IMG/VR virus record: IMGVR_UViG_3300036760_000107
Coordinates: 1-40,667 of that record
Length of the DNA: 40,667 nt
From: a virus
Direction: 5' to 3' (one strand)
In this document: piece by piece, positions 4,815 to 40,191 of the stretch
Numbering within the stretch: position 1 is the stretch's first letter
How the letters are laid out: every line of letters begins with the position of its first letter
The notes under the pieces: generated by a model
The model's input: the letters and a program-made list of their open reading frames with translations, nothing else
The model's database searches: none
What the model was told of the DNA's origin: nothing
Position numbers and translations under genes: made by a program

Positions 4815-5209
4815 TCAAGCAGATTCAAAAGCATTTGATCTTGCTTCGAGGGCATCGCTGAGCCTGAGCAAAGCCTAGCCCTCCGTGCTTGAGAGCTAAG
4901 CCTTCAGAATAAACAGCGTCAGCAAAAAAACATCGCCTCGCCGTCGCATTCGCCCGGTAGCCGTTCGCCCGCCAGTGCTGCCTTCGCCGCTGGCTCCGCT
5001 GTTTCAGGACTTTCCCACAGTAGCGGTTGTCCGCCGAGCCTGTCGTTATCCGACGCTCGGCCGGCGCATTGAATGCCTCCGGGTGGAGACGCCGAAGTTG
5101 GGAAGCCCTGGACGGCGTGGACGTTTTCGGGCTACTTCGACGCCCCCAACGGGAGGCACTGTATTGCCCACGCTGATCTCGGTTTCCCGACCGAGGCGCA
5201 TCACTGCGC
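4815..5209 (-). ncRNA. Candidate structured RNA in the leftward operon
   Basis: The gap 4781-5240 is the only long non-coding stretch in an operon of overlapping genes. Near its 3' end (minus-strand sense) an outer stem, 4815-4821 with 4888-4894 (CTCAAGC/GCTTGAG), encloses two hairpins. One is 4822-4830 with 4835-4842 (one bulged base); the other is 4849-4854 with 4879-4884 (GAGGGC/GCCCTC). That is a three-way junction. Further up lie 5033-5039 with 5055-5061 (GCCGAGC/GCTCGGC) capped by 5042-5045 with 5051-5054, then 5178-5183 with 5190-5195, and 5196-5200 with 5205-5209. A 147-codon open frame spans the gap but has no binding site and reads like shadow sequence. I do not recognise the RNA class. 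Confidence 0.55.
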
Positions 5210-6786: not shown

Positions 6787-7016
6787 ACTGCCTCCTCATG
6801 TTCGGCGAGCAGACCGCGCGCCTGCGATTCGGCGAGGGGAATTGCGCGGGTCATGATTGCGCGGCCTTGGCGAGGGCAGTCAATCTCAGCTTGCAACTGC
6901 CGAGCAAAATCAGCCCGCACGAAATCGGTGTCCAGATATCCGTTGACGGAACTCTTGACGCCGCGCAGGCGGATTTCATCTTCGACGGATACTGCTGCTT
7001 TCCGCTCGGTTGCCAT
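6783..7016 (-). CDS. First gene of leftward operon, hypothetical, 77 aa
   Basis: It starts at 7016 after GAAAGGGAAAAG, which places it about 30 bases downstream of the predicted promoter. The protein is charged and helical (MATERKAAVSVEDEIRLRGVKSS), with a C-terminal segment resembling the ends of other small phage early proteins. In-frame sequence upstream of 7016 is non-coding promoter region. No family recognised. Confidence 0.65.
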   Translation of the reverse strand: MATERKAAVSVEDEIRLRGVKSSVNGYLDTDFVRADFARQLQAEIDCPRQGRAIMTRAIPLAESQARGLLAEHEEAV

Positions 7017-7045
7017 CTTTTCCCTTTCTTCCGGATGATGTGTGC

Positions 7046-7073
7046 AATATAAGCCGCCTGCGCTGAAGTTCAA
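7046..7073 (-). promoter_or_regulatory. Predicted sigma70-type promoter of the leftward operon
   Basis: On the minus strand TTGAAC (7068-7073) and TATATT (7046-7051) are separated by 16 bases, 30 bases upstream of the first leftward gene. The -35 box lies within a short direct repeat (AAGTTC at 7066-7071 and 7076-7081), a possible operator. No equally good rightward promoter is visible in the same gap. Confidence 0.55.
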
Positions 7074-8075: not shown

Positions 8076-8309
8076 ATGACTGAGATCAATCCTGCGGACC
8101 TAGACGATCAAGAGGTTCTTTGCATCGCTGTCTGCTGGTCGGCCATGAAAGCGTTGCCGGACGAAGCGTTCGCGCGGGTTTGGAAATATCTTGGCGAGCG
8201 CAAGGCGGCTCGACTGAGAGACGGCGCCGAAACGATGGACGCTTTGCTGGGGCGTTTGCAAAAGGTCGTGGTGGAAGCGGAAACGCAGGCCCTTGACAAC
8301 GCGAAGTGA
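8076..8309 (+). CDS. Hypothetical helical protein, 77 aa
   Basis: An acidic-then-basic helical protein (NPADLDDQEVLCIAVCWSAM, later RLRDGAETMDALLGRL). A modest AGGGC lies before the ATG. It is the last gene before the regulatory gap 8310-8798. No family recognised. Confidence 0.6.
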   Translation: MTEINPADLDDQEVLCIAVCWSAMKALPDEAFARVWKYLGERKAARLRDGAETMDALLGRLQKVVVEAETQALDNAK

Positions 8310-8353
8310 CCTGATTTCGGACTTGACATAGTAAGCATTATAGTAATTTCAGT

Positions 8354-8389
8354 GGCTTATCATGGCTTACGGCGGCTTATCCATGCTTA
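8354..8389 (+). repeat. Four phased GGCTTA repeats (iteron- or operator-like)
   Basis: GGCTTA occurs at 8354, 8364 and 8374 and TGCTTA at 8384, spaced exactly 10 bp, so all four present the same face of the helix. An inverted TAAGC lies at 8332-8336. The block is flanked by an 11-bp direct repeat, TGACCTGATTT, at 8307-8317 and 8404-8414. It ends two bases before the predicted -35 box, the position expected for an activator or initiator protein array. Confidence 0.75.
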
Positions 8390-8390
8390 C

Positions 8391-8419
8391 TTGCATTTTC
8401 AGATGACCTGATTTATGAT
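8391..8419 (+). promoter_or_regulatory. Predicted sigma70-type promoter of the structured leader
   Basis: TTGCAT (8391-8396) and TATGAT (8414-8419) are separated by 17 bases. Transcription would start near 8426, six bases before the first long complementary segment. The phased repeats lie immediately upstream and one copy of the flanking TGACCTGATTT repeat lies in the spacer, so the promoter is probably controlled. Confidence 0.65.
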
Positions 8420-8425
8420 TTCAAT

Positions 8426-8570
8426 CGCTGACTGGAAACAGCGTTGTGAGAAACAAAGCCGCCTCGCATGGTGGCTGGATTTGCAGGAGAGTTGCCAAGC
8501 TTCTCACCTGCACAACGTCTCACAGCGTTGTTTCCAGCCCAGCCACCAGCCGAGGCGGCTTTTCTTTTCT
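8426..8570 (+). ncRNA. Candidate attenuator or small RNA with interleaved stems
   Basis: Segment A (8432-8451) is complementary to A' (8518-8537) over 20 positions; the only two non-Watson-Crick positions are G-U wobbles in the plus-strand RNA. Segment B (8455-8478) pairs with B' (8539-8562) at 22 of 24 positions, and TTTTCTTTT follows B', an intrinsic-terminator layout. A smaller hairpin (8482-8487 with 8507-8512) lies between. The order is A-B-A'-B', so both long helices cannot form in full together. A-A' would be the earlier-forming alternative and B-B' the terminator. On the minus strand the wobbles would be A-C mismatches, which fixes the sense as plus. Confidence 0.7.
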
Positions 8571-8798
8571 GGTGGCCTTCAGCCGCAAATCGGCGTTACA
8601 GACCGTTGCCGGCAGCTACGTTACATGCCGGATGAATTCCGGGCAATCGTGACCCATAGAACCCGGTGGGGTGACGGCGTTGACGCGCTGACGACTCCCA
8701 ACATGAGGGGTGCCAAGCACATCAAGTGCGTAACATCACCCCAATAAGGGTGGGCTATTCCTTGAATTCAAATTTCGCTCAAATTCGGAGGAAAAAGC
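8571..8798 (+). other. Downstream leader with further hairpins, no gene seen
   Basis: Between the U-rich tract and the next gene lie exact pairs 8609-8614 with 8626-8631 (CCGGCA/TGCCGG), 8639-8643 with 8662-8666 (CCGGG/CCCGG) and a longer-range 8668-8674 with 8736-8742 (GGGGTGA/TCACCCC). The last 50 bases are AT-richer and hold the ribosome binding site of the next gene. If the terminator is bypassed this would be the 5' untranslated region of 8799-9173. Confidence 0.45.
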
Positions 8799-9173
8799 AT
8801 GGTTTTGAGCCTCGTCAAGCCAGAGTTATCCACAGGCCCATCGTTCGACGAATTCTGGCGCACCTATCCGCGCAGGGTGGCTCGGCGACACGCTATCGAA
8901 ATGTGGGATAGATTGACCGACGCGGAACAGACCGCAGCGATGCGCACATTGCCGAGTCATCTGGCGTATTGGCAGGCACACGGACAACAGGCGTATTACC
9001 TGCCTCATCCTGGGACGTGGCTCCATGGCCGCCGCTGGGAGGACGAACTGCCCAAGAACGGCGCGACCGTGCGCATAGAGCGCAAATGCCCCTGCGGTCG
9101 TCCGCTCGACGAGCTGGGCTACACGCACACGAGCGCGGGGGATGTGTGCAATCCGTGCTTCGCAAGGAGGTAG
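8799..9173 (+). CDS. Replication-associated-type protein with zinc knuckles, 124 aa
   Basis: The segment FDEFWRTYPRRVARRHAIEMW at about 16-36, followed by LPHPGTWLHGRRWEDEL at about 68-84, is the pattern found in C-terminal parts of phage replication-initiation proteins and in stand-alone phage proteins beside them. The last 30 residues add CPCG and CNPC knuckles, likely a zinc site. A strong CGGAGGAAAAAGC precedes the ATG. It is the first gene after the structured leader. A replication role is inferred from family resemblance only. Confidence 0.65.
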   Translation: MVLSLVKPELSTGPSFDEFWRTYPRRVARRHAIEMWDRLTDAEQTAAMRTLPSHLAYWQAHGQQAYYLPHPGTWLHGRRWEDELPKNGATVRIERKCPCGRPLDELGYTHTSAGDVCNPCFARR

Positions 9174-39751: not shown

Positions 39752-39782
39752 ACCGACAGCGCGGCGCTGTAATGAGAAATGG

Positions 39783-39856
39783 TGCTGCCCCGAGGGATCG
39801 AACCTCGGACCTCAACGCTTACGAGGCGTGCGCTCTGCCGGCTGAGCTAGGGCAGC
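39783..39856 (-). tRNA. tRNA-Thr, anticodon CGT
   Basis: Acceptor GCTGCCC/GGGCAGC, D-arm GCTC...GAGC, anticodon loop CTCGTAA with U33 and anticodon CGU (reads ACG), T-arm CGAGG-TTCGATC-CCTCG. Discriminator A and an encoded CCA (39780-39782). One mismatch at the base of the anticodon stem (C-U). This is the last tRNA of the minus-strand array. Confidence 0.9.
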
Positions 39857-39860
39857 ATGG

Positions 39861-39947
39861 CGGAAGGTGCGTCGATTCGAACGCGCGAGCCCTTGCGAGG
39901 CTTCCGGTTTTCAGGACCGGTGGTTTCGGCCACTCACCCAACCTTCC
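39861..39947 (-). tRNA. tRNA-Ser, anticodon TGA, atypical loop
   Basis: Acceptor GGAAGGT/ACCTTCC, long class II variable arm, discriminator G and encoded CCA (39858-39860), all as expected for tRNA-Ser. The anticodon stem CCGGT/ACCGG closes a loop CCTGAAA, so position 33 is C rather than U. The T-stem (GCGCG) pairs fully only if one A on its 3' side is bulged, an extra base relative to the norm. Confidence 0.85.
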
Positions 39948-39956
39948 GTGTTCTGG

Positions 39957-40030
39957 TGCCCCGCGTAGGATTCGAACCTACAGTCTCCTGCTTCTAAGGC
40001 AGGCGCCTTTGCCATTTTGGCCAGCAGGGC
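39957..40030 (-). tRNA. tRNA with anticodon TAG (Leu by code), short variable loop
   Basis: Acceptor GCCCTGC/GCGGGGC, anticodon stem CCTGC/GCAGG with loop CTTAGAA (U33, anticodon UAG, reads CUA), T-arm GTAGG-TTCGAAT-CCTAC. Discriminator A and encoded CCA (39954-39956). The variable loop is only five bases (AGACT), whereas bacterial leucine tRNAs normally have a long variable arm. Its real amino-acid identity is therefore uncertain. Confidence 0.82.
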
Positions 40031-40034
40031 ATGG

Positions 40035-40108
40035 TGGAGAAGGTCGGGATCGAACCGACGACATCCGCGTTGCAGGCGCGGCGCTCTCCCAAACTGAGCT
40101 ACATCCCC
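40035..40108 (-). tRNA. tRNA-Ala, anticodon TGC, C at position 33
   Basis: Acceptor GGGGATG/CTTCTCC includes the G3-U70 wobble that marks alanine tRNAs. The anticodon stem CCGCG/CGCGG closes loop CCTGCAA: anticodon UGC, but C33 in place of U33. T-arm GTCGG/CCGAC is intact; discriminator A and CCA (40032-40034) are encoded. One T-T mismatch in the acceptor stem. Confidence 0.9.
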
Positions 40109-40117
40109 GAATTCTGG

Positions 40118-40191
40118 TCGGCATTGAAGGATTTGAACCTCCGACATCTCGGTCCCAGGCCGAGGGCTCTGCCAGGCTGAGCTAAACGCCG
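40118..40191 (-). tRNA. tRNA-Pro, anticodon TGG, C at position 33
   Basis: Acceptor CGGCGTT/AATGCCG begins with the C1-G72 pair typical of proline tRNAs. The anticodon stem CTCGG/CCGAG closes loop CCTGGGA: anticodon UGG with G37, but C33 instead of U33. T-stem GGAGG/CCTTC (one G-U), discriminator A, encoded CCA (40115-40117). It is the first tRNA of the array and starts 19 bases from the Rz start codon, on the other strand. Confidence 0.9.

Follow-up and report, generated by a model that had tools for sequence, protein, structure and literature searches.

An apparently undescribed phage RNA family with two interleaved helices upstream of a replication gene

What can a leader RNA do when its two longest helices are interleaved, so that one would have to open before the other closes? 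This question is raised by an IMG/VR virus record 40,667 bases long (here, the window is this whole stretch). Its minus strand carries ERF/YqaJ recombination genes, and the genes for terminase, portal, head, tail and lysis are on the plus strand. A short gene has its end at 8309, and from there ~490 bases without a recognised gene extend to a gene for a replication protein. In this interval, four segments follow one another in the order A-B-A'-B', with A complementary to A' and B to B' (Table 1). The start of the replication gene contains a perfect DnaA-box sequence, TTATCCACA, at 8826-8834 (direct inspection). At the far end of the window, a cluster of five tRNA genes (Thr, Ser, Leu, Ala, Pro) is located at 39780-40191 on the minus strand, opposite to the late genes.

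Table 1. Coordinates of the features in the window and in related loci (L numbers denote fetched loci)
Feature	Position	Strand	Evidence and remarks
Four GCTTA repeats, exact 10-bp spacing	8354-8389	+	One match in the window, 0 of 100 shuffles
Promoter-like TTGCAT-17-TATGAT	8391-8419	+	TTGCAT 8391-8396, TATGAT 8414-8419; direct inspection
5' hairpin P1 (CGCTG/CAGCG)	8426-8443	+	Folding; conserved in relatives; presumed RNA 5' end
Segment A	8432-8451	+	Pairs with A'; covaries in relatives
Segment B	8455-8478	+	Pairs with B'; covaries in relatives
Hairpin C	8482-8512	+	Between B and A'; folding; helix covaries in relatives
Segment A'	8518-8537	+	One base before B'; A' adjoins B' in all strict family matches
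Segment B'	8539-8562	+	Terminator-side strand
T-tract TTTTCTTTT	8560-8568	+	Presumed RNA 3' end; T-tract also 3' of B' in relatives
Remaining leader, without obvious gene	8569-8798	+	Alone not exceptionally stable, z -1.2
Replication initiation/primosomal-type protein gene	8799-9173	+	PHROG 270, E=7e-14; presumed regulated gene
RF02932, ~20-30 nt after the A-B-A'-B' RNA	L200 899-1020; L209 206-327; L218 2412-2533; L238 3044-3166		
Undescribed conserved ~250-nt sequence after the switch RNA	L236 7650-7900; L248 6110-6350; L191 610-860; L265 3090-3360; L090 375-640		
Fully compensated A/A' alleles on identical or near-identical B/B'	L243, L252, L198, L315, L322, L328; L180, L189, L206		

Interleaved helices and their flanks in the window

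The A-A' helix consists of 18 Watson-Crick and two G-U pairs over 20 positions, and B-B' pairs at 22 of 24 positions and runs into the T-tract, both as claimed in the initial annotation; B-B' is extendable to 26 of 31. The extended B stem overlaps A, and the core segments A, B, A' and B' do not overlap. For spans of up to 220 nt, no other stem in the 40.7-kb record is as strong as either of these. The combined score of A, B and the T-tail is 42.2, whereas 40 dinucleotide shuffles, scored on both strands of the window, gave 0-24.4; the fold z-score of 8426-8566 is -7.7. In addition, the G-U pairs of A-A' are compatible with plus-strand RNA only, the sense that had been read from wobble polarity. 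Folding adds three elements that the initial annotation lacks: the 5' hairpin P1, whose loop contains the start of A; hairpin C; and a local hairpin (AGCCG-AGG-CGGCT, 8548-8560) within B'. This local hairpin could be a weak terminator by itself, also in the A-A' form and independent of any switch.

The phased repeats consist of GGCTTA at 8354, 8364 and 8374 and TGCTTA at 8384 (GCTTA cores at 8355, 8365, 8375 and 8385). Their exact spacing is as first described, and the last copy ends one base, not two as had been stated, before the -35 box. Judged from its sequence, the array is probably an operator that binds a phage or host regulator. A scan of viral contigs for the phased pattern returned simple tandem repeats only. 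A TGACCTGATTT-type direct repeat is located on both sides of the array, at 8307-8324 and 8404-8421, and ATGCTTAC at 8383 has its inverse, GTAAGCAT, near 8333. The proposed promoter stands as to its boxes and spacing and is weak by consensus, matching 8 of 12 bases and falling under the scanner's threshold.

Recurrence of the architecture and covariation in phage loci

DNA similarity searches (BLAST) with the RNA found no relatives in phages or plasmids, and the exact RNA pattern gave nothing useful in viral contigs. Two matches among 399 Burkholderiales genomes are chance coding matches, an apparent match in Variovorax (L162) is an ordinary terminator, and the terminase relatives have little else in common with the window and no match to the RNA sequence. 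Because sequence similarity gave nothing, loci were fetched by their neighbouring replication protein (80 bacterial and 80 viral, through alignment A1 of this protein) and searched for the architecture. L201 carries A-B-A'-B' and a T-tract ~200 nt 5' of its replication gene, and scanning more widely brought up many further cases. A strict descriptor required a B-B' of 17 bp or more with a T-rich tail, an A-A' of 6 bp or more, and an A' whose end is 0-4 nt from the start of B'. Applied to both strands of all fetched loci, it gave 34 matches, all of them in phage loci and on the strand of the replication gene. With a slightly looser descriptor, the 80 viral loci gave 35 sense and 0 antisense matches, and dinucleotide-shuffled sequence gave 1. 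Another 67 sites came from two pattern scans on B'; A-A' was confirmed by script in 58, and in the remaining nine inspection by eye shows A to be complementary to A', L301 having one G-U pair. Sites outnumber contigs because several contigs were fetched twice. The RNA is also present in the named phage records MW202753 (L265) and MW202674 (L090).

The members have a common order: promoter, 5' hairpin with A in its loop, B, hairpin C, A' abutting B', and T-tract, in an RNA of ~95-140 nt. The gap from A to B is 5-12 nt in nearly all members and 19-23 nt in L225 and L201. The A-A' core between the hairpin loop and the strand abutting B' is 6-12 bp, and the 20-bp A-A' is peculiar to the window phage. 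The window RNA has this layout too, with a B-B' of at least 17 bp before its T-tract, A in the 5' hairpin loop, A' ending at 8537 and B' starting at 8539 (limit 0-4 nt), on the strand of the replication gene and 5' of it. Most relatives have a -10-like hexamer a few bases 5' of the 5' hairpin, which gives independent support for a promoter; TTGCAA or TTGCAT usually precedes it by 16-17 bp, and L265 has TTGCAT-17-TATAAT. The observed median promoter score of the members is reached at 3.5% of random positions, the upstream sequence of many members being shared by descent.

Covariation supports both helices. Across 27 members aligned with MAFFT, A-A' is 98.3% paired, with two-sided changes in 4 of 7 pairs and 32 compensated cells as against 7.2 in shuffles (0 of 500), and sliding the partner by 1-3 columns lowers the pairing to 17-64%. 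Across 30 model-aligned members, two-sided changes occur in 19 of the 22 B-B' pairs, with all measures above every shuffle (0 of 500). The A-A' test is the cleaner one because the alignment used for B-B' was fitted to the structure. The helix of hairpin C covaries as well. Homologues with substitutions that break A-A' and B-B' uncompensated would have refuted the initial annotation, by its own terms; in the relatives, substitutions in both helices are compensated, and the RNA passes this test. The structure was given by hand, RNAalifold's own structure on alignment A2 having retained P1 only, and the first model alignment (A3), which contained antisense matches, was left unused.

Covariance models connect the branches. 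In 378 kb, model R2, built on a single branch, matched eight members of other branches, each where it was expected, and had no further match. Model R3, built from all of these and leaving out the window, has its best window match at 8443-8569 on the plus strand (28.8 bits, E=1.3e-4, filters off), the next independent match scoring 15.4 bits; with default filters the window is missed. R3 also recovers L224, L200, L209, L238 and L218, all outside its training set. This score is partly generic to long hairpins before T-runs, the antisense strand reaching 21.3 bits, and membership therefore needs position and architecture too. A covariance model search of 399 bacterial genomes came back empty and, having no positive control, says little.

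The same data bear on whether the inverted repeats act as DNA, as a replication origin or a cruciform with iteron-like phased repeats. The element adjoins a replication gene with a DnaA-box sequence, and the phased repeats are located upstream of it. However, its G-U pairs suit plus-strand RNA only, R3 scores 28.8 bits on the plus strand of the locus and 21.3 on the minus strand, and the strict matches all have one orientation. In addition, the fetched relatives lack the phased repeats, unrelated tandem repeats apart, yet have the promoter-like sequence and the T-tract. We regard a DNA element as very improbable.

Dozens of environmental phage contigs thus have the interleaved design, with letters that differ almost entirely, and these RNAs therefore look like a family of RNA switches in phages that is so far undescribed. 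Rfam has no family that matches the window locus, C4 antisense RNA included, which agrees with the original description of the RNA as new. This novelty rests mainly on absence from Rfam because the literature search covered open-licence papers only. Taken together, our data describe a phage RNA family that is real and conserved, and apparently undescribed. In its structural part the reading of the initial annotation is largely borne out, and in its regulatory part it is plausible.

Folding order, downstream RNAs and possible roles

Structures were predicted for 41 distinct relative sequences and the window with programs that exclude pseudoknots. When the transcript is cut after A', A-A' is predicted with a mean pair probability of 0.48-0.99 in all but L324 (0.14). 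In the full-length transcript, the probability of A-A' falls to 0.00 (0.05 in the window) and that of B-B' is 0.82-0.98. Folding with and without B', a check put forward in the initial annotation, thus gives the predicted replacement of A-A' by B-B'. In energy terms, 3-19 nt of B' suffice to make B-B' favourable in nearly all members; in L190 it never becomes so. Since A-A' is predicted first and B-B' later in essentially all members, the folding order appears to be built in and conserved. The window version belongs with those that lean most strongly to the early A-A' form: B-B' becomes favourable only once all of B' has emerged, the final difference is 1.2 kcal/mol, and nine extra 3' bases shift the fold back to A-A'. 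The exclusion of A-A' by B-B' is partly assumed in these predictions because the programs ignore pseudoknots. Geometrically, a full 22-bp B-B' can hardly be bridged with A-A' intact, because only a few nucleotides separate A from B and A' connects straight to B'. The two helices would therefore exclude each other, though they occupy separate segments, because they are interleaved with short linkers.

We favour a co-transcriptional terminator/antiterminator switch that heads an early operon with the replication gene, which on the folding models and the conservation we consider fairly probable. A leader RNA of ~140 nt would start at the 5' hairpin near 8426 and possibly end at the T-tract near 8566. 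During transcription, A' would emerge and pair with A; B' would follow, and B-B' (22-24 bp, beside the T-tract) would displace A-A' to form a terminator. A-A' would thus be the antiterminator or read-through form and B-B' the terminator of a one-way folding switch, whose trigger might be a protein, a pause or trans action by the terminated RNA. The same attenuator assignment in the initial annotation is favoured by the predicted folding order and by compensation; against it, the two states of the window RNA are ~1 kcal/mol apart, the promoter in the window is weak, and the local terminator hairpin persists in the A-A' state. In relatives, the replication gene is on the same strand ~0.2-2.4 kb 3' of the RNA. 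Because this distance varies, the gene may not be the main target.

Within tens of bases 3' of the RNA, a second conserved sequence follows, leaving no space for a promoter of its own. In place of window positions 8569-8798, relatives have either RF02932 or an undescribed sequence of ~250 nt, whose 5' part carries CCGTACTCCG..CGTTAnnAAGnACC and whose 3' end is near a start codon. First and second RNAs are combined in a mosaic manner (L182, L241). RF02932, an Rfam family without an assigned function, has a recurrent phage operon context; among the copies inspected in Burkholderiales genomes, only one has a plausible upstream stem. In L190, a segment at ~6900-7050 with long inverted repeats at its ends (GCTATTGTTTGTTGGTG / CACCAACAAACAGTAGC) is located between the first and second RNA. 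The window itself has RF02932 (Betaproteobacteria-1, 75.8 bits) on its minus strand, in the region of 4952-5063 and 5097-5191. A strong 24-nt stem directly precedes it, with possible interleaved pairing and no T-tract, and the family covariance model has no match to that stem.

These neighbours also bear on whether the RNA is a stand-alone structured sRNA with host or phage targets, for which A-A' would be a folding intermediate, B-B' a long terminator stem and read-through incidental. Its own promoter-like sequence, T-tract and stable final fold would suit such an sRNA. However, the letters of A, B and C are almost completely different between branches while the pairing is kept, so that no conserved target-binding stretch is visible. 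In addition, the second structured RNA follows so closely, with no space for a promoter, that regular read-through is indicated. A stand-alone sRNA therefore seems quite improbable to us.

Alternatively, the terminated RNA may itself be the regulator: by pairing with the identical leader of a transcript that is nascent or has read through, one molecule would provide self-specific feedback on the replication operon, in the manner of prophage IsrK or the P4/C4 immunity RNAs. In all members, A in its hairpin loop and A' in an internal strand are predicted not to be paired together at full length; the terminated RNA, in which they are left available, could act on sister transcripts. The compensated A/A' alleles (GTGGAAG, GTGGTAG, GTGGCAG and GTGGTG) accompany B/B' sequences that are identical or nearly so, which suggests that A/A' is a possible specificity key. 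A precedent is IsrK, whose short terminated form acts on the read-through form of the same transcript (PMC4825925). On the other hand, hairpin C varies as freely, so the changes in A/A' may be neutral. Among the window ORFs scanned, none was recognised as an integrase or repressor, which makes lysogenic immunity doubtful for this phage. We consider feedback by the terminated RNA unlikely. An even more tentative extension is that each phage might have a private, self-matching A/A' key, which the terminated RNA would read on sister transcripts and thereby set read-through into the replication operon.

Relation to known systems

In this study, a covariation-supported RNA family, absent from Rfam, is found to recur in environmental phages before a replication operon. 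The route to it, fetching loci by a neighbouring protein and then searching for architecture, may serve RNA discovery where sequence search is empty. If the reading of A/A' as a key is true, the family would give co-infecting phages a means of self-recognition or copy control through RNA. RF02932 follows the switch RNA in L200, L209, L218 and L238 and is present elsewhere in the window, but its structure is different.

In textbook attenuators such as trp, pyr and T-box, the two forms have a common segment. The window RNA has four separate segments instead, with exclusion by interleaving, as would suit a simple folding-order switch. Its forms share no segment, in contrast to terminator/antiterminator attenuators including those of plasmid rep genes such as pIP501 (in part, PMC7430163). 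A ligand, leader peptide, tRNA or antisense promoter, as in the textbook cases, was not identified here. IsrK of the Salmonella prophage Gifsy-1 has short terminated and long read-through forms with alternative structures, is located 5' of a phage regulatory gene and pairs with the downstream orf45 region (PMC4825925). In the window RNA, by contrast, all complementary segments are inside the short RNA, and the likeness to IsrK is one of description. The P4 CI RNA and the C4 immunity RNAs of P1 and P7 are processed from a leader and act in trans; their internally complementary leader segments, 5' of a phage replication or antirepressor gene, prompt termination or a translation block. The window RNA is likewise an internally complementary leader, but one with its own T-tract.
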